Positions 10,161 to 37,913 of a stretch of DNA of 41,177 bases are shown piece by piece. Position numbers and translations under genes: made by a program. Source of the stretch: a virus. The stretch lies in IMG/VR virus record IMGVR_UViG_3300020171_000069, positions 1 to 41,177 of that record, one strand, 5' to 3'. The notes beneath the pieces were generated by a model. The model had not been told where the DNA came from. It saw only the letters and a list, made by a program, of their open reading frames with translations, and did not search any database. Each line of letters begins with the position of its first letter. Positions within the stretch are counted from its first letter, which is position 1.

Positions 10161-11603
10161 TTAAATGTGAACTGAATAATCATCAGACGGATCAAAGTAG
10201 AGGTCTTCGGCGGTGTCCGCAAATCCTACAACTCTTATCGCAAAATTAGTCGTTGAGGGTTGAGCTTCCACAACTGTTCCTGCAGTATCAGCTAAATAAA
10301 TCGGCGCACCTGGAGTTAAACCAGCGGGCAAAATAGCGCTTCGTATTTTTCCAATCAAAAGCATCTCTGTTGGGTTGGTATCTGCTCCTGCCGCTAAAAC
10401 ACACATTCCTAATTTTCTGGAAAATCCAGTATCTGTGCCGTCTAGGATTCCATCAACTTTATCCCATTTTCCATCAGCCGCTAAAAAACATACCTCTCCG
10501 ACAGCGATAGTAGAACCTGCTGTTCCGGCGATCACAACTCCAGACCAAGTTTCATCTCCGCTTAAAACAGCGTCCAGTTTAATATCGGTTTCTCCAAGTT
10601 GGATGTCTCCGGTCATTGTGCCTCCGGCCAGTCCGAGATAAAGAGTATCAAAATAGGTTTTAAGGAAAGCCTTAACATTTGTCCAGGTGATTTTTTTAAG
10701 TATTCCAGCAGCTGTCAGTGAAGTGGCGACAAAATCCGTATCATTGGGCGTGGCGTCATCCGCTCCACCGATCAACGCTCCGATAGTCGTTGCTGTTTCA
10801 GCAGGTGCAATAGCTGGCATAGCGTGCTTATGGTCTCTCCTAGCGGCCACTACAGCACTTCCAACTGCGGCAGCATCTCCATAGGCTTGAGTTTCTGGAA
10901 CAGTAGCGTCAAAAAGAGCTTTGTTTTTATAAACTGTTTCTCCGTTTTCTATAGCGACTACATTCGTAAGTCCTGCGGCTGGGGCGGTAGCTTGTAAAAG
11001 CAACCCGTGATTCGTAGTATTGGCGTTTAAGTCGGTATTATTGTCAGGTGTGGCAAAGTCATCTAGTTTAGTAGCGGCGATAGAAGTATTGGCGGCATTG
11101 TCTCCCGAATTAGTCCCTGAGACAGAAGCGTCTAATGGAACTGTCAGAGTTTTTTTGGTAGTTCCTCCCTCTAAAGTGAAACCTACTGCGACTTCGGTCA
11201 TCAGAGCAGTTGAAACAGCGACTTTCGTAATTGGAACTTTAGCGTTTAATTGAGTCTGTATTGCTGAAGTAACTCCATCTGAATATCCAAGTTCGGTAGC
11301 GGTTAGTGTGGCAGGGATTCCATCTAGGACATTTATTTCAGTAGCAGAAGCAGTAACAGCGACATCCTCGTTTATTTTTGGGCTAGTCAGGGTCTTATTA
11401 GTAAGGGTTTGCGTGTTGGTTGTTCCAACAACTGCTCCGGTGGCTCCGTGTTCGGCAGTATCAGCAGTGTGAGCGTTAAAATCCGTTTCCACAATTAACA
11501 TATCGGCCCCAATCTCATCCATAGCTGTGTTGTGCCTGTCATCTATGTCAGAACCCCTATCGGTGGCTCCGTTCATGTTTTGATACGATTTACTTAGATT
11601 CAT
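10161..11603 (-). CDS. Long tail fibre protein
   Basis: A protein of 480 residues with classic fibre elements: NTQTLTNKTLTSPKINEDVA, ATEINVLDGIPATLTATELG, AGGTMTGDIQLGETDI, and a pyocin-like C-terminal domain around GLTPGAPIYLADTAGTV. Low Cys, high Thr/Ala/Asp. The N-terminus (MNLSKSYQNMNGATDRGSDI) may attach to the tail; the C-terminal ~150 residues form a beta-rich shaft end. It overlaps the 83-residue upstream gene by 4 bp. Confidence 0.8.
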   Translation of the reverse strand: MNLSKSYQNMNGATDRGSDIDDRHNTAMDEIGADMLIVETDFNAHTADTAEHGATGAVVGTTNTQTLTNKTLTSPKINEDVAVTASATEINVLDGIPATLTATELGYSDGVTSAIQTQLNAKVPITKVAVSTALMTEVAVGFTLEGGTTKKTLTVPLDASVSGTNSGDNAANTSIAATKLDDFATPDNNTDLNANTTNHGLLLQATAPAAGLTNVVAIENGETVYKNKALFDATVPETQAYGDAAAVGSAVVAARRDHKHAMPAIAPAETATTIGALIGGADDATPNDTDFVATSLTAAGILKKITWTNVKAFLKTYFDTLYLGLAGGTMTGDIQLGETDIKLDAVLSGDETWSGVVIAGTAGSTIAVGEVCFLAADGKWDKVDGILDGTDTGFSRKLGMCVLAAGADTNPTEMLLIGKIRSAILPAGLTPGAPIYLADTAGTVVEAQPSTTNFAIRVVGFADTAEDLYFDPSDDYSVHI

Positions 11604-11851
11604 GGTGTTGTTCTTTCAGTCCAATTAGTTGTTTGTACTCCTCCTGGTAATGTGAATGGAGTTCCTGTGTCTAAAAACGGATAGTAATTAGGAGAAAAGA
11701 AGTATATCCCTCTTTCTTGCCAGGTCGTTCCGTCTATAAACATTAGGTCGTAATCATCAATGAAATCATCCAAATCATCGATAAAAGACGAAGAAAAGTT
11801 CCTGTCCTTATCCCAGCTTGTTGATGGTTTTGTCCTAGTAGTCCAAGTCAT
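11600..11851 (-). CDS. Small neck/fibre-adaptor protein, unknown
   Basis: An 83-residue protein rich in Trp, Asp and Thr (MTWTTRTKPSTSWDKDRNFS, then GTTWQERGIYFFSP). It lies between the neck adaptor and the long fibre and overlaps the latter by 4 bp. It could connect fibre and tail or be a small structural domain; no family recognised. The 84-bp stretch upstream (11852-11935) holds no convincing gene. Confidence 0.55.
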   Translation of the reverse strand: MTWTTRTKPSTSWDKDRNFSSSFIDDLDDFIDDYDLMFIDGTTWQERGIYFFSPNYYPFLDTGTPFTLPGGVQTTNWTERTTP

Positions 11852-11935
11852 AATTATTTATCAGTGTTTTCAACACATTTTCCCAATAGGTTCTGTTAAA
11901 ATTAGTTTTTGTTAGGACAAGATTGCTTATACTTT

Positions 11936-12646
11936 TTAATTTTGTCCATATTCGTAGTCTGTATCGTTAGTTACTATTTCGTAAACTCGGTCTTGGTTTC
12001 TTCTTCGGTAAAATCCTTTCATCCTTTCGAGATACCCAAGCATATTGTTTTCAGCCTGGGTCAGTTTGTTGGCGTTGCCTTCTTTTTCAAGATATTTCTC
12101 AAAAAAATCTTTAGCAGCTCCATAAGAAAGTCCCTTATGAAAAGGTCTCGCAAATCCAGGTTCGTCGGTGACATTGCTCAATTGAGTGGGGAGTTTTTCG
12201 TAATAAACCTTCAGACCCGAAGTAACGGCGATAGTCGGGATAGGATAGAGGAATAGGGAATTGTCCATCAGGTCAAAGAAGGGGTCTCCTTCATCAAATT
12301 CTTCTCCGATAGTAGTGGTGTCGTTAGTTCCGGTGCGTTCATTGATATCTTTAGGATTAACAGTGTACCAGGTCGTTCCGTCGTAAGTTATCTCTACCTT
12401 TTTTATCTTTAAAATATCCGTCGGTAAGATGTATTCTTGTTGGCTGGCGACAAGATTGGTGGTGGCGTAATCAGCCTGAAAATCCCACTCATCCATTGAA
12501 TTTATGATCTCAGTAACAAATAGGTCGTAATAGGTATTTAAAGAAGCGTCCAGATCGGCACTGGAATAGGTCGTCGTATTGGTATTGGTCAGCATTCGGG
12601 TGAAGTTTCTCAAACCGTCCGAAATTGAGGCATTGGATAAAATCAT
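11936..12646 (-). CDS. Head-tail adaptor / neck protein
   Basis: A protein of 236 residues with the pattern of podovirus and SU10-type adaptors (T7 gp11-like): an N-terminal helical part (LDASLNTYYDLFVTEIINSM), YILPTDILKIKKVEITYDG in the middle, a short beta part (LFLYPIPTIAVTSGLKVYYE) and C-terminal helices (LTQAENNMLGYLERMKGF). It forms the ring below the portal. In this phage it is separated from the capsid genes by the glycan island. Confidence 0.65.
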   Translation of the reverse strand: MILSNASISDGLRNFTRMLTNTNTTTYSSADLDASLNTYYDLFVTEIINSMDEWDFQADYATTNLVASQQEYILPTDILKIKKVEITYDGTTWYTVNPKDINERTGTNDTTTIGEEFDEGDPFFDLMDNSLFLYPIPTIAVTSGLKVYYEKLPTQLSNVTDEPGFARPFHKGLSYGAAKDFFEKYLEKEGNANKLTQAENNMLGYLERMKGFYRRRNQDRVYEIVTNDTDYEYGQN

Positions 12647-13350
12647 AATATTTCTTTTGGAGCAGGGCTATATTTAGCCACTGACTTATCCCCATAAGGT
12701 CTAATGTTTAAATTTGAATCGGGTGTCCATTTTTTCCACACTTCTTCAAACCAATCTATAGGTATGTCATAAGCGTGGGAATAGCTCTGTATCTTTTCTT
12801 TTACCTTTTCGTCTGAGTGAACCCAACTAAAATGATGGCAGGTAACCGGAATCAGGGGGGCTTGTTCTGTAAATGGGTAAGATTTGTCGAAAGGTTGGGT
12901 CTGGCGATGTTCGCAAAATCTAACTTTTCTGGGATTGACCGCGATTATCGGTTTATGCCTGTCAATCGGGTCGAATATGTAATCTCTAGTCTTCCAATAG
13001 GTCAGCATCTTTTCTGCTCGATAGGCATCGTCTCCTTTTAGTGATGAGATTATCTTTTGTCTGTCTTCTAGCGTGTAAAACTCATCAGGGTCTATGATTA
13101 AAACATAATCGTAATCTCTTAAAATCCCCAGTCCCCAATCCCTTTGTTGAGCTTCAGTATCCCAGAATCTTTCTATCACTTCGGCATCCCCTGTATTTTC
13201 TTTTGTTCCTTCGTCCCCGACATTTACTCCGTTCCAGGGTTGAGACGAGATAAGGACTAAATGCTTATCTACCAATCCTTTCCACTGTTCGATACACTTT
13301 CCTATTTCTGGTTCATTGTAGGCTATTGTTAGAACAGCGATTTTTGACAT
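12643..13350 (-). CDS. GT-A fold glycosyltransferase
   Basis: A protein of 235 residues. It opens MSKIAVLTIAYNEPEIGKCI, the nucleotide-binding start of GT2-like enzymes, and carries the metal-binding acidic motif DYVLIIDPDEF near residue 90. A His-rich segment (VTCHHFSWVHSDEKV) follows. It is the last gene of the glycan island and overlaps the neck adaptor by 4 bp, so the island is fully embedded in the late operon. Donor and acceptor cannot be read from sequence. Confidence 0.75.
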   Translation of the reverse strand: MSKIAVLTIAYNEPEIGKCIEQWKGLVDKHLVLISSQPWNGVNVGDEGTKENTGDAEVIERFWDTEAQQRDWGLGILRDYDYVLIIDPDEFYTLEDRQKIISSLKGDDAYRAEKMLTYWKTRDYIFDPIDRHKPIIAVNPRKVRFCEHRQTQPFDKSYPFTEQAPLIPVTCHHFSWVHSDEKVKEKIQSYSHAYDIPIDWFEEVWKKWTPDSNLNIRPYGDKSVAKYSPAPKEIL

Positions 13351-13361
13351 ATTCTAGGGCG

Positions 13362-14705
13362 TTAATAGTTCTTAATGTGTTCTATGACTAAATTAGCGTT
13401 ATATTCCCTATTTTTTCCCAGTCTGTCGCACATCCCTCCGGTGGTTCCTCCATATTTATAAATATCCATATCTATATACTTAAACTTCGCGCCTGTTTTT
13501 GCTACTCGGCCCCAGAAATCCCAATCTTCGTAGAGTTCCTTATGTTCTTCCCAGTAACCACCCACTTGTTTCCACAAGTCTCGCCTATATAACGATGTTC
13601 CGAACAACTGATTATTGACTAAAAACTTTTCATAAGTTATCTCTGTAGTCGGTTTCAGTTGGGTCTCGTTATCTCTCCACACCAGATTCCCGTAAACCAC
13701 ATCTCCAGCTTGTTCCAGCATCTTATCAATCACATTCGGATATAACTCATCATCAGCATCTAGGGGTAAGATGTATCTAGCTTTTGAATTACAGATTGCA
13801 GTGTTTCTTGATTGGGCTAATCCTCTGTTTCTGTCGTGTCTCAAATATCTTATCGGCAAGTCTTTTATATCTTCATACGGGTCTTTATCCGAATGATCAT
13901 CAACTACGACTATGTCGCACTTAGTCTTATTGTTTAAAACACTTTCTATCGCCCGTTTTAACAAGTCATTGTGATTATAATTGGGTATGACCACGCATAC
14001 TTTTCTTGATGTTTGCTCGAGATAATCATTATATAGCTTTCTCAAATGAGGGAATCTGTCTAACCAGATTGCCATTTTTCCTGAACTTTCTTTTAAATAA
14101 CTTTCAAATATGCCTATTTTCTTTCTTGCTCCTCCGAGTTCGTGTCCTATCTCTAAATCATCTATTACATATAACTTATATCCCGCCTCTGAGGCTAACT
14201 GGGATGTCTGAATATCAGTAATTCCGAACCACTGAAAGGGAATAAACTCTGCAAATCTATCGAATAACTTAGTGTTAAAATAACAGGCGATATCTTCAAT
14301 ATGGAAAACTTGTCTTTTGCCGTCTTTATGAATTCTCCACATCTGCTCCCATCCACTCCCGTCTTTTTGAATTGCCGAACTCACTATGCCCTCACCTCCT
14401 TTTATATTTCTCTCTATTATCTCAAAATAGTCTTCTGGTATGTCGTAAATATCATTATTGAAAATTCCTACGAAATCATACTTTCTGAATAGTGGTTCGG
14501 TAAATATGTAATCGTGCATCCCTCCGAAGCCTACGTTCTCCCTGCCTAAGTCTATAACCTCAATGTCTTTATTTTTATAAACCTGTTCTTCTGTGCTTGA
14601 GTTATCTAAAACATAAATATCGTGTTTTTTACCCATTAAAAGAGCTTTTACTACGCTATCTGTCATTTCCGAGGTATTGTATGAGCAAATTATTGTGCAG
14701 AGCAT
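13362..14705 (-). CDS. Two-domain GT2 glycosyltransferase
   Basis: A protein of 447 residues with two GT2 units. The first opens MLCTIICSYNTSEMTDSVVK with a degenerate acidic motif (GIFNNDIYDIPEDYF), as in rhamnosyltransferase-like WbbL families. The second starts near residue 236 (VCVVIPNYNHNDLLKRAIES) and has VVVDDHSD, NRGLAQSRNTAI and the DADDE motif near residue 320, with a late EDWDFW segment typical of GT2 catalytic regions. It could add two sugars in succession. Its start overlaps the GT32-like gene by 16 bp. Confidence 0.85.
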   Translation of the reverse strand: MLCTIICSYNTSEMTDSVVKALLMGKKHDIYVLDNSSTEEQVYKNKDIEVIDLGRENVGFGGMHDYIFTEPLFRKYDFVGIFNNDIYDIPEDYFEIIERNIKGGEGIVSSAIQKDGSGWEQMWRIHKDGKRQVFHIEDIACYFNTKLFDRFAEFIPFQWFGITDIQTSQLASEAGYKLYVIDDLEIGHELGGARKKIGIFESYLKESSGKMAIWLDRFPHLRKLYNDYLEQTSRKVCVVIPNYNHNDLLKRAIESVLNNKTKCDIVVVDDHSDKDPYEDIKDLPIRYLRHDRNRGLAQSRNTAICNSKARYILPLDADDELYPNVIDKMLEQAGDVVYGNLVWRDNETQLKPTTEITYEKFLVNNQLFGTSLYRRDLWKQVGGYWEEHKELYEDWDFWGRVAKTGAKFKYIDMDIYKYGGTTGGMCDRLGKNREYNANLVIEHIKNY

Positions 14706-15322
14706 AGTGCCTTTTTAAATACTTTAGATATTAGCCAGGGCTGTGCCAAAATGTCTCCACTGCTCATCTTCTTAAATTCGTCTGAAAAACTTGAATTATA
14801 CAGCGTAAAAACATAATTGTTTTCGGTAGAGTATTTTTTTATATCTTCATCTTCAAACAGTTTCCAGAACTCATCTCCTGTGTGATAAATGGGACATATC
14901 ATCTCTCTGGTAAAAACTCCGAACTCTTTAAACTCTTTGTCCTTCAATAATGGTTGGATTAAATCGCTGAACGTCGGATCTTTGACTTTCTTCATCGCCT
15001 CGAACCATCTCTCCACCAGCTTGTTTCCCCTTGTGGCCCCAAAGAATCCAGGTATCCCTGCGAATCCGTGTTTTTCAACTAATTTTATAAGGGGCTTCAA
15101 ATCTTTCATCACTATCATGTCAGCATCTATCCAAAATCCTCCATTCTCTAAGATTAACCAGGCTTTTAAATAATCCGTCTTGTGGTTTATTTTCATTCCA
15201 TTCAATTCCGGGTAATCATCGTGTCCTAAAATAACAACATCCATTCCGCTATTCTTGAGGCTCTTTTGGCAAAGGTCTATATACCCGTGCTTTTTACCTT
15301 CCCAATATGTGTATAAATTCAT
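14690..15322 (-). CDS. GT32-like (DXD sugar-binding) glycosyltransferase
   Basis: A protein of 210 residues. The segment TDYLKAWLILENGGFWIDAD carries the GT32/Gly_transf_sug signature: a helix, the Gly-Gly-x-W motif and the Asp-x-Asp metal site near residue 70. The rest is alpha/beta with no signal peptide. It overlaps both neighbours (29 bp with the GT upstream, 16 bp with the two-domain GT2 downstream), so the island is translated as a tightly coupled unit. Confidence 0.8.
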   Translation of the reverse strand: MNLYTYWEGKKHGYIDLCQKSLKNSGMDVVILGHDDYPELNGMKINHKTDYLKAWLILENGGFWIDADMIVMKDLKPLIKLVEKHGFAGIPGFFGATRGNKLVERWFEAMKKVKDPTFSDLIQPLLKDKEFKEFGVFTREMICPIYHTGDEFWKLFEDEDIKKYSTENNYVFTLYNSSFSDEFKKMSSGDILAQPWLISKVFKKALCSAQ

Positions 15323-16085
15323 ATTCTATTTCCTGCTGGGCGGAGTTTATATTAAATTCCTTATCTATATTTATCGTCTTTCCTTCCAGGTACATCTTTT
15401 CTAGTTCTTCTGGAGAATGGGCGTACTTTAATCCGTTCCGATTGGCGTTGGTATCATTGACCCGGTTAGCCGGAACTCCGAAGACTCTGCTCTGTTTATA
15501 GGCTACCATATTGCTCTGTAAGCCCTCTAAATGCCTCTGTAACACACCTTCGTATATATTTGGGTTGTTATATGCCTCTAGCTCGGAAATCTCCTTTATT
15601 TGCGTTGTTTTGAATATGTGGGAGATTACTGACAACGGATATCCAAAATCTAATTCTTCCTTCCGCCAATCCCACTTGATAAACTCCCCTCTATCTTCGC
15701 AATTCTTGATCTTGTTAGGCTTATCATTCGAGTAGCAATAGTCTATATTTAGTCCTAATCTTAGGCTGAAACACACCACATCGTCAGTTATTTCTTTCAA
15801 AATAGCCTTATTAAAATCTCGATAGAAGATATCATCATCAGCCGCGAAACAGGTATAATCGTATTTCATCAATCCTAGTAAATCTTTCTTGAAATCAGTT
15901 TGTTCTATAAAATTGACATAAGGCTTCCGCTTCTTCAGTATCTCGTACCCCCCCCTAAACTCCTCGTCTGATTTGTAAAGAACATCTATATTATTGAAAA
16001 ATCCCTTGGTATGCAGTTCTATGCTATCGATTGTCGCCTGCAATTGCATCGGTCTATTTTTTGAAAATATGATGAGATTTAACAT
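15294..16085 (-). CDS. GT-A fold glycosyltransferase
   Basis: A protein of 263 residues opening MLNLIIFSKNRPMQLQATID, the start used by a family of GT-A transferases in capsule clusters. The acidic motif FAADDDIFYR near residue 85 supplies the DXD site. C-terminal half with conserved-looking GVPANRVNDTNANRNG. Overlaps the nucleotidyltransferase-like gene by 32 bp and the GT32 gene by 29 bp. Substrate unknown. Confidence 0.75.
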   Translation of the reverse strand: MLNLIIFSKNRPMQLQATIDSIELHTKGFFNNIDVLYKSDEEFRGGYEILKKRKPYVNFIEQTDFKKDLLGLMKYDYTCFAADDDIFYRDFNKAILKEITDDVVCFSLRLGLNIDYCYSNDKPNKIKNCEDRGEFIKWDWRKEELDFGYPLSVISHIFKTTQIKEISELEAYNNPNIYEGVLQRHLEGLQSNMVAYKQSRVFGVPANRVNDTNANRNGLKYAHSPEELEKMYLEGKTINIDKEFNINSAQQEIEYEFIHILGR

Positions 16086-16473
16086 AATCTAGGTGTTTTG
16101 TTTTATTTGGGTATTTTCCGTATTCCAGCAGTCTGATGGCAAGGTCTGCATATTCTGAACCGCTTAGTATCAGTTCCCTATAGACATCAAGCGAATCAAT
16201 CAGGTCTATCCTTAAGATCAACTCTACTTTGATAAAATCTATATGTATGTGTCCGTCTATGCTTTCTACCGCAATCTTATATCCTCTATCTAACAATCCG
16301 AATGATAGGTGTTGTATCTGACGGGCCATCTCATTCTTATCTTGGCAATAAACATCTATGTCGTTTCCTATCTCGTAATCTGGATAGATGGGAGACTTTT
16401 TAATGACTATATAACCAACACTTGTTTTTGAAAGAACCGTCTGTATGTCTATTTTATCTTGATTATCATCCAT
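16054..16473 (-). CDS. Nucleotidyltransferase-fold protein of polysaccharide cluster
   Basis: A protein of 139 residues. The segment YEIGNDIDVYCQD carries a G-N-D-x-D pattern like the catalytic loop of the minimal nucleotidyltransferase/polymerase-beta fold, and HIHIDFIKVELILRIDLID may give the third acidic residue. Such small proteins occur beside capsule genes, but their substrate is usually unknown. It overlaps the ParB-like gene upstream by 25 bp and the GT downstream by 32 bp. Function is tentative. Confidence 0.55.
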   Translation of the reverse strand: MDDNQDKIDIQTVLSKTSVGYIVIKKSPIYPDYEIGNDIDVYCQDKNEMARQIQHLSFGLLDRGYKIAVESIDGHIHIDFIKVELILRIDLIDSLDVYRELILSGSEYADLAIRLLEYGKYPNKTKHLDYVKSHHIFKK

Positions 16474-17291
16474 TTTTTTATTCCCTTATTCAACATAATT
16501 GCCAATCTGTGGTTTCCGTCTTGCACTATCCCACCTTTCACGAATATATTTCCTATTTTTTTCTTATCAAATCTGTCAATCAATTTATCAAACATTACCG
16601 GAGAACCATTTAACACTAGATTAACTCCCTTGTGCTTGTCCCAATAATCTATATAGGGCTTCTTATCCCCCATGACATACTTGTAATAAATGCTTTCTTT
16701 GATAGGAACTTGTCTTAATTCGTCATCTGATATTTCAGAGACCAACAAATCTTCTATACTCGTCCTTTCTATCGTGTAATCAACAAATCTTTCTAAATAA
16801 AATGGGGCTTCTATGGTTGGGCAGGAACTTCCGATTATCGAGTCTATACTTTGGAACGGTAATGTATTCCAAAATTCATAAGTCTGGGATTCGAAATCTG
16901 AGGTGTGTATGACGTGGTGCTCACTCCGTTCTCCATCTATTATCGGGTTATACTTTTCCCTGACCTCCCACTTGAACCTATTTATCAACATACATTGGAT
17001 ATGTCGGTATTCTCCTTCTCCGACGATCTTTTCTTCGGGTCTATTATTTTTTAAAAGTCCGATGTATGTATCTGCAAATCCTATCCTGTGCAAGTAGTCT
17101 GTTTTGGCCTTGATGTGTTGCCAGGGGACTGCATCGGTACTGTATAGCTCTCTTATAAAATCTATATTGTCCTTCGGGGTGTATCTCTTAAAATAAATAA
17201 GTTCCAGGTCTTCATACTTGCTTAGAATTTCTAGTATCCCATCGATTTTATCCACTCCGTGGGCAAATACAACAAAGAAGTCTAGCCTCAT
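16449..17291 (-). CDS. Capsule-cluster protein with C-terminal ParB-like motif
   Basis: A protein of 280 residues. The N-terminal 130 residues (HGVDKIDGILEILSKYEDLE, STDAVPWQHIKAKTDYL, EGEYRHIQCMLINRFKWEV, HHVIHTSDFESQTYEFW) resemble a family of unknown function seen in capsular polysaccharide clusters. The last ~30 residues (FVKGGIVQDGNHRLAIMLNK) show the ParB/sulfiredoxin-like D-G-x-H-R motif, used in some relatives for nucleotide or phosphate transfer. It sits between the dehydratase and the nucleotidyltransferase-like gene. It may modify or transfer a phosphorylated glycan. Confidence 0.5.
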   Translation of the reverse strand: MRLDFFVVFAHGVDKIDGILEILSKYEDLELIYFKRYTPKDNIDFIRELYSTDAVPWQHIKAKTDYLHRIGFADTYIGLLKNNRPEEKIVGEGEYRHIQCMLINRFKWEVREKYNPIIDGERSEHHVIHTSDFESQTYEFWNTLPFQSIDSIIGSSCPTIEAPFYLERFVDYTIERTSIEDLLVSEISDDELRQVPIKESIYYKYVMGDKKPYIDYWDKHKGVNLVLNGSPVMFDKLIDRFDKKKIGNIFVKGGIVQDGNHRLAIMLNKGIKKWMIIKIK

Positions 17292-18295
17292 AATATTTTA
17301 CATATTGTTTCTATATCCTTGTCAGTTAAATCCTGATGGACCGGAACAAATAGTCCAGTCCTTCCTATCTTTTCTGCCACTGGGTATTCTCCTTCTAATC
17401 CGTACTCTACTGTTGGTAAACAACTAAATAGCTTTCTTGCCTCGATTCCGTTCTTCTCTAGTTCTTTCAACTTGTTATCCCTTTCTTCTGAATCTTTATA
17501 AAAAACAGGGTAACAATGAGGCGTATAAGCATACCAATCTTTTTTTAGCAGTTTATTGAAAGTCTCCACGTTCTCTCTGCGTTTCTTTATCACATCACCC
17601 CCAGAGGGAGCGATAGCACACCCGATCGCCGCTAGGACATTACTCATCTTCCCGTTTAGTCCAAACACCGGAAAATGGAACATATCTAATATTTCAGTGC
17701 TTAATCTTCCGTGGTTCCGACAAGCTCTCGCAAACTTAGCCAGAGTCTCGTCATTAGTCAGAATCATCCCTCCTTCTCCGGTAGTTATGGTATGAGAAGG
17801 AAAGAAAGAATAAGTTGAAAATTCTACATCGTTTCTGATTCCATAGGCCTCACAGTTATCTTCTACAACAGGAACACCTAGTTTTCTTATCTCGCTGATT
17901 CTGGCGCTCTTACCCAAAAGGTTAGCTGGCATTATACAGAGAGTCTTATCAGTGACTTGAATCAAGTCGGGATTCATCTGGCAGTCGTCATCTATATCAA
18001 CAAAAACTGGTTTCAATCCGTTGGCTATAACAGCATTAGTATGAGCTATAAAAGTAAGCGCTGGCACTATGACCTCATTCTTATCTGGATAAAGAGCTTT
18101 TAGCGCCGCTAAGGAAACAATATCAGCCATTGTTCCATTACAGACCGCTATCCCGTATTTAGCCCCGTGATAATTGGCGACAGCCTCCTCAAATTCCGGT
18201 ATGAAACTTCCACTAGCAATCCTATTGTCATCCAGAGCTTTGTTTATGTTGTCTCTGACTTCCTTTGTAATTTTTGATGTAGCTAGTGATATCAT
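17288..18295 (-). CDS. ColD-like nucleotide-sugar 3-dehydratase (DegT family, His in place of Lys)
   Basis: A protein of 335 residues of the DegT/DnrJ/EryC1/StrS fold. PLP-site residues are visible: NGTMAD (residues ~53-58), the Asp in VVEDNCEAYG (residue ~146), and SFFPSHTITTGEGGMI. In aminotransferases the residue before T-I-T/T-T-G-E-G-G is the Schiff-base Lys; here it is His168. This swap is known from GDP-4-keto-6-deoxymannose 3-dehydratase (ColD) and the E1 3-dehydrase. The expected product is a 3,6-dideoxy-4-keto sugar nucleotide. The adjacent GMD-like gene could supply GDP-4-keto-6-deoxymannose. No ColC-like partner is seen. Confidence 0.8.
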   Translation of the reverse strand: MISLATSKITKEVRDNINKALDDNRIASGSFIPEFEEAVANYHGAKYGIAVCNGTMADIVSLAALKALYPDKNEVIVPALTFIAHTNAVIANGLKPVFVDIDDDCQMNPDLIQVTDKTLCIMPANLLGKSARISEIRKLGVPVVEDNCEAYGIRNDVEFSTYSFFPSHTITTGEGGMILTNDETLAKFARACRNHGRLSTEILDMFHFPVFGLNGKMSNVLAAIGCAIAPSGGDVIKKRRENVETFNKLLKKDWYAYTPHCYPVFYKDSEERDNKLKELEKNGIEARKLFSCLPTVEYGLEGEYPVAEKIGRTGLFVPVHQDLTDKDIETICKIL

Positions 18296-19230
18296 AATCT
18301 TTCTCTCCAGTAAAAAAGTAAATTATCCAAACTCTTCTCAAGAGGGATTGTCTTCTCCCATCCTAGCTGTTCTTTGGCCTTAGTTGCGTCTCCTTTCATT
18401 GTAGGGGTATCGACAGGTCTCATCCTTTCTGGATCTATTTCGGTTTTTACCTTGACCTTAGCTAGCTTTAAAAGCGTATCTAAAACCTCTTGTATCTTAG
18501 TCGGTTTTTCAGAAGCTAAACAAAAAACTTCTCCCCATCTTTTACTCCTCATAATCTTCACATAACCCCTAACGACATCTTCTATGTCGGTAAAGTCCCT
18601 GGAACTTTCTAGGTTTCCGTGCCTGATAACATCTCTTAATCCTTTCTCAACTTCGACTACCTGTTTAGCAAAATTAGAATCCACAAATACTTCCGCCCTT
18701 CCATACCCAGTAACATTGAATGATCGAGAAACTACAACCTTCATCCCATAAGCCCGATGGTAGAGCCTGGCAATCATATCTTGGGCGTACTTTGATATCC
18801 CATAATGAGTATTGGGGTCAGCTACTGTTTCCTCGTTTATCTTCCCCTCTTGTGTTCCGTAGATTTCAGATGTTGAAGTCACCAGTATCGAAGGAGAGAA
18901 GTCTAACTTTCTTACACATTCTAAGATATTGACTGTTCCTATAACATTGGTAATGTACGTTTCTATCGGGCTATCCCAGGATGATTTGACATAACTCTGG
19001 GCCGCTAGATGATAAATCTCTTCCGGCTTTACTATATTTAAAACATTTCCTACTGAAAATGAATCTGACAGTTCTACAAGATGGATAGTAACCCTATCTA
19101 GAATATCTTTAATCTTGTGCAGGTCGCTTCTTACCCTTACTGTTCCGTGGACTTCGTGTCCTTCTTTGACTAGATAATGCGCTAAGTGGGAAGCGGCGAA
19201 TCCGTTTATTCCGCTAATTAAAATCTTCAT
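18292..19230 (-). CDS. GDP-mannose 4,6-dehydratase-like SDR enzyme
   Basis: A protein of 312 residues. It shows the extended SDR features: the Rossmann motif GINGFAASHL (residues 7-16), HLAAQSYV (74-81), the catalytic TSE (120-122) and YGISK (Y143, K147), and SRSFNVTGYG. This is the pattern of GDP-mannose 4,6-dehydratase, which makes GDP-4-keto-6-deoxy-D-mannose; related reductases or epimerases are possible. I chose ATG at 19230, which overlaps the upstream TGA (ATGA) and has GGAAGG before it. Overlaps the ColD-like gene by 4 bp, consistent with sequential steps. Confidence 0.8.
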   Translation of the reverse strand: MKILISGINGFAASHLAHYLVKEGHEVHGTVRVRSDLHKIKDILDRVTIHLVELSDSFSVGNVLNIVKPEEIYHLAAQSYVKSSWDSPIETYITNVIGTVNILECVRKLDFSPSILVTSTSEIYGTQEGKINEETVADPNTHYGISKYAQDMIARLYHRAYGMKVVVSRSFNVTGYGRAEVFVDSNFAKQVVEVEKGLRDVIRHGNLESSRDFTDIEDVVRGYVKIMRSKRWGEVFCLASEKPTKIQEVLDTLLKLAKVKVKTEIDPERMRPVDTPTMKGDATKAKEQLGWEKTIPLEKSLDNLLFYWRERL

Positions 19231-21506
19231 AGGTTTTCCTTCCATAAATTGCTTATTCTATCCCAGTTATAAGTTTCTTTAGCCCAGTTGATCTCTTCAG
19301 TATTGACCTTATATTCCATTCTCTTGATATATTCTTCATTGTTATTATCTCCAAAGGTGTTTTCTTTTTCCCATTTTTCTCCCTCGGTATGTATTTTCCA
19401 TCCGTATTTGACAGTCTCATCAAGAGCAGCAAAATCTGAGGTTATCATCAGGCATCCCGCTAATTGAGCCTTGACCGCACTGATGCAGTGAATCTCATAA
19501 AATTGGGTAGGGTACAGAAACACACCAGCTTCTAGGTACTTTTTAGCGATATCCTTATGGTTTATCATCATCCCCCCCTCGGCCCGTCCTTCGGTTACCA
19601 GTTTATTAAATCTCTCCATCTGTTTAGCCTTCCAGTCCATCATTTCCTTATTCTCGGCGTGGACTTGGTCATACACTCCCCAGCCGTAATACCAGGCTAA
19701 CTTCCAGGGCTTATCGGGTTGTCGTTTAATCAGTTCTTCAAAGATATCCAGGGTAGCGTCTAGGTGTCTATCAGGGCTTGAGGTATTTAAAATAAGGTAC
19801 GGATTCTTTTCGACTTTTTCCTTGAATAACTCAGGGTCTATTCCGTTAGGTATCACAGCTATCTTTTCGTCTGGAATACTCGGGAATAGAATCCGGTGAG
19901 CGTTAGTTTTGACGAAAACCTTATCTATTTTCGACAATCTTTTGGGTGTAAACTCCTTATCAGAAACAACATCGTGCATATCTATAAAAATCTTATCAGA
20001 GTTAAGTTCTTCGTAATCACAGGGTTTGGGGTGTCTCCAGATTATCGTCACATCCTGCTTGTCTCGGACATTATATTTCCAATAATGACGATATTTCACT
20101 CCGTCCCATTCTCCTTCTTTTCCGCAGTTGCAGTAAACGGTGATATTCCAATCCTTAGCTAATTTTTTAGTTAAATTTATGACCGCCTCTTCCGATCCCC
20201 CGCATCCATCAGTCATCGCAATATCAGGGTTCCAGTATTTAGAGGTATAACCGCAATAATATACTAAATCTTTTCCAGAAGACTCTTTTTTCCAGAATAA
20301 TGAGTTCTTGAAATAGCAAATCTTCGGATGGGATTGGATTTTTTCTGGTAAATTATCAAGGTACTTCCTTAGTTCTTCTCTATCAGTTATTTTTTCCGAT
20401 TCTTCCAGGTATTTATCTATATTTATAGCCTCTCCCATCTCTCCTCGGATGATTTTATCCAGTTCTGATATCATTTTCTCTTTAGGGAACATCTTGGAGA
20501 GCTTTTCGACTGTTAAAACTGCTTTTTCAAACTTTCCGGTCTCGAAATATATCTTAGCCATCGTCATCATCGGGTATAAATCATATTCACGGGGATTGTA
20601 GGCGATGATTTCTTTATCGGGGATAGGCATTTGTAGTCCTAATTCTATGAAATTAAGAGCCTTATCGTATTTTTTATCGTTATATAACTGTTCTCCTAGT
20701 TTTAGGTAAGCATCGGGATAGGTCGGTCTTAAATAAAACGCTTCAAAAGCATATCGTTGGTCTTTTAAAATATGAAACAGCAGCATATTAGCCAGGTACT
20801 TCTCTTCTTCGCTATCAGATAACTCGATGTATTTTTTAAATATTTCAGCGGCCTTTTCGTGTTCCTTTTTCATTACGAGGGCATTTCCCATCAACCAGTA
20901 GCTTCGGGGGTCTTGTGGGTCATTTTTGAGCGCCTGAGAGGATATCTCGTAGTTCCTGTCTATGCTCTGATCTACCCGTTTGTCGCTAGTAAGGTGTAAC
21001 ACTTCTATATTTTCTATAAAACAGGTGTCTAAACTCCGGTTCTCCTTAAAATCTTCGTGGACTATTCCTACCCACTCGACACAGCCATCATTTTTGATAA
21101 TCCGGCTTTTCAGATGTTTGGTGTCACAGGTTTTGTTCTCATTGAAGTGATAGAGGTAATTCATCACGCCGATATCAATAGCCTTTTCACTCATCGTATC
21201 AACTGCGCTTCTGAGGTTCTGGACTCCTTTTAAGACATCATCAGAATCCAACCACAGGATATAATCACCCGTAGCTTGAGAGAAGTTATAATTTCTAGCA
21301 GATGCGAAATCATTAGTCCACCTAAAGAAAGATTCTTTTCCTCCATAGCCCTTAATAACTTCCGAAACTTTCTTATTGGGCTTGTCCCCCGCTTGGGTTA
21401 TACAGATTTCATCTACTCCTGATGAGACATACCTGAGGCATCTATCGAGAAGTTTCGCCTCTTCTTTGTCAGGTTTTACGATTAAACAAAGTGATAGTTT
21501 TACCAT
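19227..21506 (-). CDS. Bifunctional GT2-TPR-GT4 glycosyltransferase
   Basis: A protein of 759 residues. Residues 1-110 form a GT2 domain (KLSLCLIVKPDKEEAKLLDR, NYNFSQATGDYILWLDSDDV with the DSDD metal motif). Residues ~200-370 are helical TPR-like repeats (YWLMGNALVMKKEHEKAAEI). From ~410 a GT4 domain follows (MTDGCGGSEEAVINLTKKL, KTNAHRILFPSIPDEKIAVI, then PNGIDPELF and the LYPTQFYEIHCISAVKAQLA E-x7-E-like region). It is the first gene of the glycan island. GT2-TPR proteins often glycosylate proteins, which fits virion decoration. Confidence 0.85.
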   Translation of the reverse strand: MVKLSLCLIVKPDKEEAKLLDRCLRYVSSGVDEICITQAGDKPNKKVSEVIKGYGGKESFFRWTNDFASARNYNFSQATGDYILWLDSDDVLKGVQNLRSAVDTMSEKAIDIGVMNYLYHFNENKTCDTKHLKSRIIKNDGCVEWVGIVHEDFKENRSLDTCFIENIEVLHLTSDKRVDQSIDRNYEISSQALKNDPQDPRSYWLMGNALVMKKEHEKAAEIFKKYIELSDSEEEKYLANMLLFHILKDQRYAFEAFYLRPTYPDAYLKLGEQLYNDKKYDKALNFIELGLQMPIPDKEIIAYNPREYDLYPMMTMAKIYFETGKFEKAVLTVEKLSKMFPKEKMISELDKIIRGEMGEAINIDKYLEESEKITDREELRKYLDNLPEKIQSHPKICYFKNSLFWKKESSGKDLVYYCGYTSKYWNPDIAMTDGCGGSEEAVINLTKKLAKDWNITVYCNCGKEGEWDGVKYRHYWKYNVRDKQDVTIIWRHPKPCDYEELNSDKIFIDMHDVVSDKEFTPKRLSKIDKVFVKTNAHRILFPSIPDEKIAVIPNGIDPELFKEKVEKNPYLILNTSSPDRHLDATLDIFEELIKRQPDKPWKLAWYYGWGVYDQVHAENKEMMDWKAKQMERFNKLVTEGRAEGGMMINHKDIAKKYLEAGVFLYPTQFYEIHCISAVKAQLAGCLMITSDFAALDETVKYGWKIHTEGEKWEKENTFGDNNNEEYIKRMEYKVNTEEINWAKETYNWDRISNLWKENL

Positions 21507-21856
21507 ATTCTTTTTCTATAATTAGGGACTACAAACATCGGGAAAGTCTCTTTGAACCACTTATACTCTCTGTCAGCTTCTTCATTGTCTCTTCCTTTAA
21601 ACAAGACATCTTGACCGTGGATAGTTAGTATCTCGTTTATCGCTCCCAGCATCCTATTGGGAAGCCTCAATGAAAGCCTGACCTCATCATCTTTTTTACC
21701 ATCCGCTCCGATAATTTCTCCGTAACTCCACTCTCCCATCTTAGCTCTTTTTTCTTTAATTGAATCCAGTATCGTTTGATATTCTTCTGGATAATTTTTA
21801 ATGAACGATTTGACACTCGCTATTATGGTTTCTCTTCTGGTTATTGGTTTTTTCAT
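21500..21856 (-). CDS. Small protein following the capsid gene, unknown
   Basis: A protein of 118 residues from ATG at 21856 (MKKPITRRETIIASVKSFIK). The frame stays open up to a TTG at 21901, but that codon lies inside a strong RNA hairpin, so I prefer the ATG. A basic first half is followed by LSLRLPNRMLGAINEILTIH and an aromatic end (YKWFKETFPMFVVPNYRKRI). It may be a capsid-associated or head-completion protein, and its stop overlaps the first glycosyltransferase by 7 bp. Confidence 0.6.
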   Translation of the reverse strand: MKKPITRRETIIASVKSFIKNYPEEYQTILDSIKEKRAKMGEWSYGEIIGADGKKDDEVRLSLRLPNRMLGAINEILTIHGQDVLFKGRDNEEADREYKWFKETFPMFVVPNYRKRIW

Positions 21857-21869
21857 ATTGCTATCAATA

Positions 21870-21902
21870 TTTGAGGGGGGAATATTGATTACCTCCCTCA
21901 AA
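21870..21902 (-). other. Hairpin/pseudoknot downstream of the capsid gene
   Basis: On the transcribed strand TTTGAGGG (21902-21895) pairs with CCCTCAAA (21877-21870). The loop contains TCAATATT, which can pair with AATATTGA at 21871-21864, just past the first stem. Order of the segments gives an H-type pseudoknot or two mutually exclusive hairpins. It starts 18 nt after the capsid stop. No U-tract follows, so it is not a standard terminator; mRNA processing, stabilisation or control of the next gene is more likely. Confidence 0.6.
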
Positions 21903-21919
21903 CAATATGATTAAATTGC

Positions 21920-22843
21920 TTAATCGATATCGAACCCGTCGGCATAGAAGTTTGAATCTTGATTTCGCACTTCGAGAGTCATAGCGCCATACACAGCTTC
22001 AGCATCGTATGCTCCAGAGGCGGGCATATCGATAATCTGAGGTCTGATTAAGTAGGCGACTTTGAGCTTCTCTGGTTTGATACCAAGAACTCTTCCAGTC
22101 GTATCTGTTCCTGAAACCTGGATATATCTGTGGGCGTGGACGACCACTCTTCCGAATCCTGTCTCAAAGATATCTACCGCCATCACGATTCTCTTTTCTC
22201 CGACACCATCATAAGTGATGCCAGTCTTGTTCGTGAAATCATCGGTAGCATTCTTGAGGAAAGAACCCATATAGAGGTCAGTAGCCACTTCTCCGTTAGA
22301 GTTATCCCAGTTGGCCTTCATCAATCCTTTGAGGATTGAAGCGGACCAGACTGTTCCAGAATTATGAGAGGTATGATTGGTAGATTTGGAAACCGCCTGA
22401 ATTATACCTTTCATCTTCGCAGCTGTAGCGCTGGAAGCTCCAGAAACTAGGGTGCTTCTTACTAGGTCGTATTCCACTGCGTTCGCAAAATCTACCATAG
22501 CCTTGGCTCTCTGCCGTGCTAGTTCGTCTTGCGACTGGAATTTATCGACCGCTCTCTGTACTTTTGTTACGCTGTATCTCTTCGCAACTTCCTCAACAAT
22601 GTTGGTAAGCCTGGTTGGAGTTGTCAGAGCTGTATTTGAAAAATCAGCACCTTCAGCCTTAGCCAGGGTTCCAGCAGTGTCATAAGTATCGACTAGAGTT
22701 TCGTGGACAGTTCCACTGGCCGTAGTCTTACCCAGTTGGTTGTGAATGGATACTTCTTTGGCGGTGAGGATCTCAATGAGTCCCAGTACATCTTCCTTTG
22801 CGGAATAATCGCCATAAGAACGTAATATTTCATCTGTAGCCAT
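21920..22843 (-). CDS. Major capsid protein, SU10 / DUF5309-like
   Basis: A protein of 307 residues with an HK97-type outline. The N-terminal region contains IEILTAKEVSIHNQLGKTTA and ETLVDTYDTA. The central helical part has EEVAKRYSVTKVQRAVDKFQ and the long helix ELARQRAKAMVDFANAVEYD, followed by the insertion SGASSATAAKMKGIIQAVS. The end is beta-rich (RPQIIDMPASGAYDAEAVYG). These are features of the SU10 major capsid family of podoviruses. It follows the scaffold gene and is bracketed by RNA hairpins on both sides. Expected to be the most abundant late product. Confidence 0.8.
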   Translation of the reverse strand: MATDEILRSYGDYSAKEDVLGLIEILTAKEVSIHNQLGKTTASGTVHETLVDTYDTAGTLAKAEGADFSNTALTTPTRLTNIVEEVAKRYSVTKVQRAVDKFQSQDELARQRAKAMVDFANAVEYDLVRSTLVSGASSATAAKMKGIIQAVSKSTNHTSHNSGTVWSASILKGLMKANWDNSNGEVATDLYMGSFLKNATDDFTNKTGITYDGVGEKRIVMAVDIFETGFGRVVVHAHRYIQVSGTDTTGRVLGIKPEKLKVAYLIRPQIIDMPASGAYDAEAVYGAMTLEVRNQDSNFYADGFDID

Positions 22844-32067: not shown

Positions 32068-32538
32068 TTATAATATTTTGAAACTTTTTTGGCAATGTGG
32101 ACAATTTATTGTTCCAAAATGTATTCCACCTTTACTTATTACCAATTCTAGATTTTCAATTCTATTATCATCTTTTACTCCGTTTCTGTGATGGACAATT
32201 TCCCACCTCTCCAAATATCTTCCTAGGTGTTTTTCCATAACAATGCGGTGTTCCATAACTCCTTTATTGCTTTTCCGACTTGGATGATCTGGAGAATAAA
32301 TCTCAACGTATCCAATCCTTGTTATTCTTCTTCCACCTCTCCATCCAGGACACAACTTACCAACTCTTTTCTTTCCGAGTTCGCTAAACATTTGCTTAGT
32401 TTCTTTGGTGTGGTGTTTCCCTTTAAACGGGCTGGTGACTCCATACATTGGATTATTTTTACCAGACATCTTGATGCTTATTTTTCTTCTCGTTTCTTCG
32501 GAAACCTTTTTTGTTCTTCTATAAAATCCCTTTGGCAT
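32068..32538 (-). CDS. Homing endonuclease, NUMOD3-HNH type
   Basis: A protein of 156 residues. Residues ~1-60 hold NUMOD3-like DNA-binding repeats (SEETRRKISIKMSGKNNPMY, HTKETKQMFSELGKKRVGK). The HNH_3 catalytic part is GVMEHRIVMEKHLGRYLERW, followed by IVHHRNGVKDDNRIENLEL, with a C-terminal zinc knuckle (TINCPHCQKSF). It cuts a specific site to spread its own gene. It lies precisely between the intact NinB-like gene and a second NinB-like C-terminus, so its target was probably that gene. Confidence 0.85.
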   Translation of the reverse strand: MPKGFYRRTKKVSEETRRKISIKMSGKNNPMYGVTSPFKGKHHTKETKQMFSELGKKRVGKLCPGWRGGRRITRIGYVEIYSPDHPSRKSNKGVMEHRIVMEKHLGRYLERWEIVHHRNGVKDDNRIENLELVISKGGIHFGTINCPHCQKSFKIL

Positions 32539-37382: not shown

Positions 37383-37913
37383 TTACCCACTCCTAGCCTT
37401 ATCCCTTATTATAAAGTGCAATGTTAGGTGACACTTGTGACATAGAGTTATAAGGTTCTCTTTCTCTTTTTCATAATTATCGTACTGTCTTGTTTTATCT
37501 TTATCACAGTCTTTATGGTGAACATCAAATCTCCTCGATCCTTTTTCCCATACTTTCCCGCAAGACTGACAGGTATAATCGTCCCTAGCTCTTACCATCT
37601 CTCTGGTATATTCTCTTCCCTCTAGTCCCCTAGAAACATCCCTACAGATTTCCTTATTATGATTTAAATTTTCGCTGACCTTCTCTAAAATAGCCTTTTT
37701 CCTCAATCCTATAATTCTGTTCTTTTCTGCTCGTGTTTTCATCCTTTCTTCTTTTCGTAGATAACTTTCATCTAGCTTTTTAAAAGAGAACGGACTTTTG
37801 TACCCTGTTAATAGCTGGTGAACACGTTGCCTAGAAATACCAAGAATACTTCCTATACTTTTATAACTATAACGCTTATCTCTAAGAGATTGTATTATTG
37901 CTTTTCTATCCAT
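37383..37913 (-). CDS. HTH-HNH endonuclease, leaderless early gene
   Basis: A protein of 176 residues. Residues ~14-38 are a helix-turn-helix (RYSYKSIGSILGISRQRVHQ), the rest a basic linker and an HNH domain: YTCQSCGKVWEKGSRRFDVH, then HKDCDKDKTRQ and NLITLCHKCHLTLHF. All metal and catalytic residues are visible. The ATG begins 6 nt after the -10 of a near-consensus promoter, so the mRNA probably lacks a leader. It is the first early gene. Role: DNA nicking in replication, or a homing nuclease. Confidence 0.8.
   Translation of the reverse strand: MDRKAIIQSLRDKRYSYKSIGSILGISRQRVHQLLTGYKSPFSFKKLDESYLRKEERMKTRAEKNRIIGLRKKAILEKVSENLNHNKEICRDVSRGLEGREYTREMVRARDDYTCQSCGKVWEKGSRRFDVHHKDCDKDKTRQYDNYEKEKENLITLCHKCHLTLHFIIRDKARSG

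Follow-up and report, generated by a model that had tools for sequence, protein, structure and literature searches.

A putative portable virion-glycosylation cassette with a histidine-type DegT enzyme next to the capsid gene of an environmental phage

What is a block of sugar genes doing between the capsid gene and the neck adaptor of a phage? The question is raised by the viral record IMGVR_UViG_3300020171_000069 (41,177 bases; the whole stretch is referred to here as the window), in which every virion gene found is on the minus strand and an island of nine ATG-initiated open reading frames (ORFs) occupies positions 12643–21506 of that strand. The order of transcription is terminase (PF03237), portal, probable scaffold, major capsid protein (MCP), a gene for a 133 amino acid (aa) protein, the island, an SU10-type adaptor, a 480-aa fibre-like protein and a tail protein that is a right-handed beta-helix. 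Seven of the eight internal junctions of the island overlap by 4–32 nt, with an 11 nt gap at the remaining one, and at the two edges the first and last genes run 7 nt into the 133-aa gene (upstream) and 4 nt into the adaptor gene (downstream), respectively. No terminator-like sites were found on the minus strand within the island, and promoter-like matches in the region showed no excess (44, versus 47.5 in shuffled sequences). An earlier note, made from the sequence alone, had described nine tightly overlapping genes that separate the capsid gene from the neck adaptor within the late operon; its coordinates were exact, the profile matches of the MCP (phrog_1328) and adaptor (PF24175) bear out the separation, and membership of the late operon is supported. 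We propose that the island is probably a portable virion-glycosylation cassette, expressed late, in which an enzyme of the DegT fold would yield a 3,6-dideoxyhexose precursor and soluble transferases would glycosylate a virion protein.

Recurrence of the island genes next to capsid genes

Single-sequence scans of viral contigs with the window DegT enzyme, the 759-aa transferase of the island or the 425-aa tail protein of the window returned no relatives, which were recovered instead with a DNA pattern for the histidine motif of the DegT enzyme (seven viral and 48 genome contigs matched) and with alignment scans. The alignment scan of viral contigs took seven phage DegT members as its query, with query patterns lacking the histidine motif, and 79 loci were kept from 185 stretches encoding a relative (handles such as G003 and L109 are ours).

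The siphovirus G003 (IMGVR_UViG_3300031227_000107, 43,972 bases) has an HK97-family MCP (PF05065, phrog_10), a phrog_2662 portal, a phrog_442 head-tail adaptor and a tape-measure protein, and its MCP-adaptor gap carries homologues of the short-chain dehydrogenase/reductase (SDR, 63% identity), the DegT enzyme (57%) and the 263-aa (61%), 210-aa (58%) and 447-aa (46%) proteins of the window island, together with a GT2 transferase, a sulfotransferase-family protein and a two-domain transferase. When the whole of G003 was compared with all non-nested window ORFs of at least 60 aa, the cassette genes gave the only matches. A near-twin of this phage was found in G005 (59,985 bases, 40,000 of them covered). 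The corresponding gap of G007 (16,964 bases, MCP phrog_267) holds transferases, a methyltransferase, a His-type DegT (51%) adjoining a canonical GMD, a Lys-type DegT and a cytidylyltransferase-like protein, while an SDR-DegT pair lies downstream of the MCP gene in L109 (phrog_9953; 20,960 of 43,199 bases covered) and L111 (phrog_1357; 20,960 of 42,859 bases covered). In L119 (MCP phrog_771), the interval from the MCP gene to a connector-like gene is occupied by a sugar island, one gene of which encodes a 28% homologue of the 263-aa transferase. In L170 the MCP gene is followed by a small gene, a counterpart of the 759-aa gene, an ORF, a counterpart of the 235-aa gene, the SDR and His-type DegT genes and, further on, a stabilization gene. 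The 759-aa protein also has a homologue in the Manatee Spring phage MW202524 (28.5% identity over 751 aa), encoded two genes past the MCP gene. Both L170 and MW202524 also have a small gene at the position of the 133-aa gene of the window.

The SDR and DegT genes are adjacent and in the same order in the window, G003/G005, L109, L111 and L124, and the cassette lies in the gap between the MCP and neck genes in the window, G003 and G007, while the window, G003, G007, L109 and L111 have MCPs of phrog_1328, phrog_10, phrog_267, phrog_9953 and phrog_1357, respectively. The recurrence of a core kit at the same spot across MCP families suggests that phages swap sugar coats, and that the cassette may be portable among phages whose virions are unrelated. 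The earlier note had proposed checking related phages for the block, and one tail-gene relative proved to be without it: in L008, which shares the 425-aa tail protein (63% identity) and the adaptor (33%), the MCP-adaptor interval is free of sugar genes, and the MCP is not detectably related to that of the window.

An MCP scoring at least 30 bits was detected together with a DegT gene at 18 of the 79 loci, the two genes being on one strand in every case. The DegT gene was within 7.6 kb downstream of the MCP gene at 13 of these, a count that describes the loci and is neither an unbiased rate nor an enrichment test, as the MCP queries came mostly from cassette records already found. Near-duplicates are among the 18 loci (L121 with L127 and, by MCP family, L124 with L125), and Lys-type enzymes are encoded at two of the 13 downstream loci (L134 and L180). 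In other records the MCP-adaptor slot contains Lys-type enzymes (amino sugar), sulfotransferases or methyltransferases. More tentatively, the gap could be a dedicated exchange slot for virion sugar chemistry, similar to the cluster swaps of bacterial O-antigens, with the His-type 3-dehydratase clade as one recurrent insert.

Some further loci are of note for their gene content. In L103 (G007), positions 10897–13965 hold three consecutive genes (His-type DegT, canonical GMD, Lys-type DegT), which would fit a 4-amino-3,4,6-trideoxy sugar, and in the G007-type phage L134 (9045–10984) the MCP-adaptor slot contains a Lys-type DegT and an SDR, the chemistry being swapped and the phage type kept. The large viral contigs L118 and L120 carry long transferase, dehydratase and methyltransferase islands with homologues of the 263-aa protein (32–34%), outside any MCP-neck slot seen. 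The record L038 (ON073792.1, Aphanizomenon phage Yong-DA) has ParA/ParB and polysaccharide-export genes and no annotated virion gene in the 32.9 kb covered, and might represent a plasmid or a piece of host DNA and not a phage.

The His-type DegT enzyme and its SDR partner

The window DegT enzyme has Ser167-His168 where aminotransferases have Asn-Lys; the alignment confirmed the His168 substitution pointed out in the earlier note. The catalytic stretch reads FFPSHTITTGEGG, compared with YSHHIATMEGG in wild-type ColD (2gms) and FGNKIITTGEGG in perosamine synthase. The engineered ColD chain 3gr9 has NK at the catalytic pair, and is reportedly a ColD double mutant that was converted to an aminotransferase. 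Ser167 and His168 are invariant in the aligned phage members (7/7) and in the phage-plus-bacterial set (8/8), and the remainder of the active-site block SH.ITTGEGG is retained across widely diverged phage and bacterial members. In the 3-dehydratases E1, ColD and SpnQ a histidine replaces the aminotransferase lysine, and a four-cysteine [2Fe-2S] cluster is present in E1 and SpnQ, but not in ColD, according to a review (PMC8987622). The E1-type four-cysteine pattern is absent from the window DegT family (0–2 cysteines in the 80 residues after GEGG, the region in which E1 itself shows the cluster), as expected of a ColD-type iron-sulfur-free mechanism.

Phylogenetic analysis gave one branch in a 46-row tree that parts 33 His rows, with ColD and E1 among them, from 13 Lys rows (support 100/99, recovered in 100% of 200 bootstraps). 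A 36-row tree likewise parted 26 His rows from 10 others (97/96), the Lys group including row L068b without a reading of its catalytic residue. Because the His rows split from the Lys rows, the window DegT is best read as a predicted sugar 3-dehydratase by catalytic class. The enzymes of the window, G003, L109 and G007 form a clade (100/99) in the 46-row tree, apart from the E1 group and from ColD, which is placed in a separate 7-row clade (100/99); by these alignments, the window clade is a His clade separate from both. The label ColD-like given in the earlier note therefore holds for the catalytic class and not for the clade. His-type DegT enzymes are common in the viral collection: the catalytic residue in 93 DegT-family ORFs of the 79 loci was His in 61, Lys in 27 and Arg in one, with four unaligned, for a query that was itself His-type. 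The closest bacterial relatives were from Patescibacteria metagenome-assembled genomes (41–44% identity), which is a statement of gene kinship and not a host call. An identity as LegB or LegC was set aside, as the NCBIfam scores were 144 and 140 bits against cut-offs of 475 and 420, and LegC is a Lys enzyme.

The SDR has the motifs T125-S126-E127 and Y148xxxK152 (TSE, YGISK), corresponding to the pattern [ST]SE..Yx3K that is listed as the GMD fingerprint in Table 1 of the same review (PMC8987622). The [ST]SE element is kept in four of the five cassette SDRs of the window type, the window included. In a tree that took in the 14 top SDR matches (one of which duplicates L103), the window SDR falls within a GDP-hexose SDR clade beside GMD, RMD and GDP-heptose 4,6-dehydratase (100/100). 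It lies outside the canonical GMD clade (100/100) and the RMD clade (94/90), in a phage lineage of its own with G003, L109 and L110 (98/97). With constrained trees, none of three candidate sister groups was rejected, namely GMD (p-AU, from the approximately unbiased test, 0.25), RMD (0.41) and heptose 4,6-dehydratase (0.10), and the score with the GMD equivalog TIGR01472 was 160 bits against a cut-off of 415. The earlier note had called this protein GMD-like, of which the fingerprint stands while neither the equivalog score nor the trees single out GMD. We predict that the SDR is probably a 4,6-dehydratase, with a 4-keto reductase as the less likely assignment.

Proposed role of the island and its alternatives

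The count of five glycosyltransferases in the earlier note was upheld (Table 1): two of them (759 aa and 447 aa) score above the Pfam cut-off for GT2, the 263-aa protein is assigned by its predicted fold, and the remaining two by sub-cut-off matches or a homologue, with only DXD-family matches of this kind as Pfam support for the 210-aa protein and a homologue in the L170 glycan island (95 bits) for the 235-aa protein. The 759-aa protein also matches phrog_13126 (99.5 bits) and phrog_2170 (45.6 bits), and is a candidate for the first, protein-modifying transferase, while the 447-aa transferase probably consists of two GT-A units. The model of the 263-aa protein (predicted local distance difference test score, pLDDT, 71.7) has a GT-A fold and matches GnT-I, POMGnT1 and TarP (Z 12.4–13.9), with VIA as the best match (Z 13.9, root-mean-square deviation 3.3, 179 aligned residues). 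No profile support was obtained for the labels ParB-like and nucleotidyltransferase-like that the earlier note had given to the 280-aa and 139-aa proteins, and six of ten proteins submitted to NCBIfam and PHROGs were without a match.

Table 1. Genes of the island and its borders, listed from the capsid side to the adaptor side
Feature	Coordinates	Strand	Evidence
Major capsid protein (MCP), upstream border	21920..22843	-	phrog_1328 major head protein, E 3.1e-35
133-aa protein, MCP-island gap	21500..21901	-	no Pfam, NCBIfam or PHROG match; 7-nt overlap with first glycosyltransferase
759-aa glycosyltransferase (GT2, TPR repeats, GT-B-like C-terminus)	19227..21506	-	PF00535 35.6 bits and TPR matches
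GDP-sugar SDR, predicted 4,6-dehydratase or 4-keto reductase	18292..19245	-	PF16363 GDP_Man_Dehyd 247.5 bits, far above cut-off
His-type DegT enzyme, predicted NDP-4-keto-6-deoxyhexose 3-dehydratase	17288..18295	-	PF01041 DegT_DnrJ_EryC1 223.8 bits, far above cut-off
280-aa protein	16449..17291	-	no Pfam match at E<=5; AlphaFold model pLDDT 34.5
139-aa protein	16054..16473	-	no Pfam match at E<=5
263-aa GT-A-fold glycosyltransferase	15294..16085	-	61% identical in G003; predicted fold
210-aa putative DXD glycosyltransferase	14690..15322	-	PF05704/PF04488 below cut-off; 58–59% identical in G003
447-aa GT2 glycosyltransferase	13362..14705	-	PF00535 104.3 bits on residues 237-357; 46% identical in G003
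235-aa putative GT2-like glycosyltransferase	12643..13350	-	PF13704 15.4 vs 27.5 bits; homologue in L170
SU10-type adaptor, downstream border	11936..12646	-	PF24175 SU10_adaptor 50.8 bits, cut-off 27

In the mechanism that we propose, the cassette would be expressed together with the late genes, and the His-type DegT, using pyridoxamine 5′-phosphate and glutamate as in ColD, would remove the 3-hydroxyl to give GDP-4-keto-3,6-dideoxyhexose. Soluble transferases, with the 759-aa protein acting first, would assemble a short glycan in the cytoplasm, built directly on a virion protein of the capsid, neck or tail; the substrate and product, the sequence of the reactions, the protein that accepts the glycan and the benefit are inferred. 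Neither a membrane protein nor a flippase, a polymerase or a lipid-linked initiator was found among the nine island proteins. Kyte-Doolittle segments over 1.6 were detected in none of the nine (0/9), compared with 9, 5 and 8 in an E. coli flippase, initiator and polymerase, respectively, and proteins with such a segment numbered 0/8 in the G003 island, 1/10 in G007, 1/15 in L109, 1/8 in L111 and 0/10 in L119, the three that have one all being marginal (1.61–1.65). The cassette proteins therefore include no machinery for a lipid-linked, exported glycan, and this, together with the GT-A fold of the 263-aa transferase and late co-expression, makes stepwise cytoplasmic glycosylation of a virion protein the best reading. 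The earlier note had also preferred decoration of the particle, which the presence of the same cassette in the MCP-adaptor gap of unrelated phages favours as well. There is precedent in mycobacteriophages, where capsid and tail-tube subunits carry glycans from the phages' own transferases, as described in PMC12619734, PMC11256854 and PMC12363180.

Several observations weigh against this reading. The DegT gene is upstream of the MCP gene at 5 of the 18 loci with both, and sugar genes also occur outside the MCP-neck slot, with the DegT of L043 and L044 located beyond a connector or adaptor-like gene and the SDR of L110 upstream of the portal. The initiator role of the 759-aa protein is based on a weak similarity to SunS (TIGR04195, 49 bits against a cut-off of 350). 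For the enzymes, the top PDB match of the SDR is the reductase RMD (2pk3, 225 bits, versus 124 for the best GMD), the GMD fingerprint is not diagnostic because 2pk3 carries SSE too, the L111 SDR reads SSQ with Gln in place of the catalytic Glu, and no second, ColC-like SDR or other finishing reductase was seen in the window, as the earlier note had stated for ColC. Finally, a phmmer search of the PDB with the window DegT ranked lysine perosamine synthase first (135 bits), ahead of E1 (78.3) and ColD (75.6), and a profile of eight relatives gave the same order (255.9, 213.5 and 206.2 bits).

The SDR results bear on a possible but less likely alternative, in which GDP-4-keto-6-deoxymannose would come from a host GMD, the 3-hydroxyl would be taken off by the phage DegT and the phage SDR would act last, as a 4-keto reductase that gives GDP-3,6-dideoxyhexose; the lack of a ColC-like gene would thereby be accounted for. 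Besides the RMD match and the Glu that is missing from L111, it is favoured by the small cost of the tree with the SDR as sister to RMD (2.0 log units), but the [ST]SE fingerprint persists in most cassette SDRs and the partner of the His-type DegT in G007 is a canonical GMD rather than a reductase. The earlier note had predicted a 3,6-dideoxy-4-keto sugar made from the GMD product; a 3-dehydratase with this type of product remains the best reading of the His enzyme, while the SDR may be a reductase and not the first step.

Some phage-coded transferases change the host O-antigen, and two GtrB-like PHROGs match the 447-aa protein, so that modification of the host surface has to be considered, with the glycan on lipopolysaccharide or capsule blocking superinfection or the re-adsorption of progeny. 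We regard this as improbable, since the nine proteins include none of the membrane-bound or lipid-linked components listed above, and the block overlaps the capsid-side and adaptor genes and, across phages that differ in their capsids, adjoins the capsid gene. We give similarly little credence to the view that the histidine has inactivated or redirected an aminotransferase-fold protein. On profile placement, to which the earlier note had attached its prediction, the answer is divided: pairwise and profile searches both put the lysine perosamine synthase nearest, and trees alone group the window DegT with proven His dehydratases, but conservation of the histidine and its active-site block over widely diverged members speaks against a loss of function. 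DNA-glycosylating phage transferases are known (a reference cited in PMC12619734), but hypermodification of DNA, with the sugar placed on modified bases of the phage genome, is highly improbable: no base hydroxylase, hydroxymethylase or base kinase was among the 30 Pfam-scanned window proteins, which cover the small early genes only in part, and the virion-operon location does not point that way.

Several genes near the island or elsewhere in the window were recorded alongside. The 133-aa gene contains a stretch, RLSLRLPNRMLGAINEIL, that by eye resembles a ribbon-helix-helix motif. The 480-aa protein (10161–11603) shares a short module (residues ~231–264) with otherwise unrelated proteins at most of 32 viral loci, making this a mosaic fibre-like module; an assignment as a P22 gp10-like stabilization protein was dropped, as most of the 32 matched loci share the short module only. 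The virion protein of 425 aa that is shared with L008 (6443–7720; its gene lies downstream of that for the tail spike) is strongly conserved, the portals of the two phages being only 21% identical. An HNH/NUMOD3 homing-type endonuclease is encoded at 32068–32538, with a relative adjoining the L008 adaptor gene, and an HNH protein at 37383–37913 has a sigma-70 region-4-like N-terminus.

Novelty and comparison with known systems

Phage-coded sugar 3-dehydratases are already known. As far as our searches show, three elements are new: a His clade of its own, movement of the cassette among phages whose virions are unrelated, and its recurrent position next to the capsid gene; no literature describing the cassette or the clade was found among open-licence papers, which is weak evidence of absence. 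Within the parts of that literature consulted, virion glycosylation has so far been shown for a few mycobacteriophages. The primary paper on the subject is reportedly Freeman et al. 2023. If a transferable capsid-side dideoxysugar cassette is confirmed, sugar-coated particles would be a widespread and exchangeable trait of environmental phages, and an exchange slot would allow particle glycotypes to change independently of the capsid lineage. The window DegT clade represents a testable third lineage of sugar 3-dehydratases, and the cassette a possible tool set for placing defined rare sugars on protein shells.

The window DegT resembles ColD/WbdK (GDP-4-keto-6-deoxymannose 3-dehydratase, 2gms) in its fold, in having Ser-His for Asn-Lys, in lacking the E1-type four-cysteine cluster and in the location of its gene next to that of a GDP-hexose SDR. 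It differs in belonging to its own His clade, in lacking the second adjacent His of ColD, in its lower score to 2gms (75.6 bits) than to perosamine synthase (135 bits), and in having no ColC-like gene nearby. With E1/RfbH (CDP-4-keto-6-deoxyglucose 3-dehydratase, 3bcx) it shares the fold and the His for Lys, but not the cysteine cluster or the clade, and from perosamine synthase and other Lys sugar aminotransferases it is set apart by the replacement of the catalytic Lys by His. The SDR is, like GMD (TIGR01472), an extended SDR with [ST]SE..Yx3K in the same GDP-hexose SDR clade (100/100), but has 317 aa, GFAASHL for GQDGSYL and RDFTD for RDWGH, and lies outside the canonical clade with 160 against 415 bits. 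RMD (GDP-6-deoxy-D-lyxo-4-hexulose reductase, 2pk3 and 6x3b) is its best PDB match and has the RDFTD motif and a similar size, but the window SDR is not in the RMD clade (94/90), with a p-AU of 0.41 for sisterhood.

At the level of the whole system, mycobacteriophages Che8, Corndog and Myrna also encode transferases, the glycan on virion proteins being known there, in the source passages, and predicted here, whereas the window phage also brings sugar-nucleotide enzymes. The transferase genes of Maravista are near the 3′ end of the genome (according to one of the mycobacteriophage papers cited above), whereas those of the window are between capsid and adaptor. Gtr-type O-antigen conversion uses a membrane flippase and transferases, unlike the nine island proteins with their lack of hydrophobic segments, and the 759-aa protein is far below the cut-off for the SunS peptide S-glycosyltransferase (TIGR04195, 49 versus 350 bits). 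Among phages with related chemistry, S-CAM7 carries a sugar 3-dehydratase by annotation, and cyanophage ACG-2014f, like the window, encodes a GMD, a His-type DegT and transferases, with the genes for GMD, an epimerase and the DegT enzyme consecutive; the ACG-2014f enzyme differs in being a true member of the ColD clade with the HH motif, and the 12.9 kb covered include no gene annotated as a virion gene, whereas the window enzyme belongs to a separate His clade and is encoded among virion genes.

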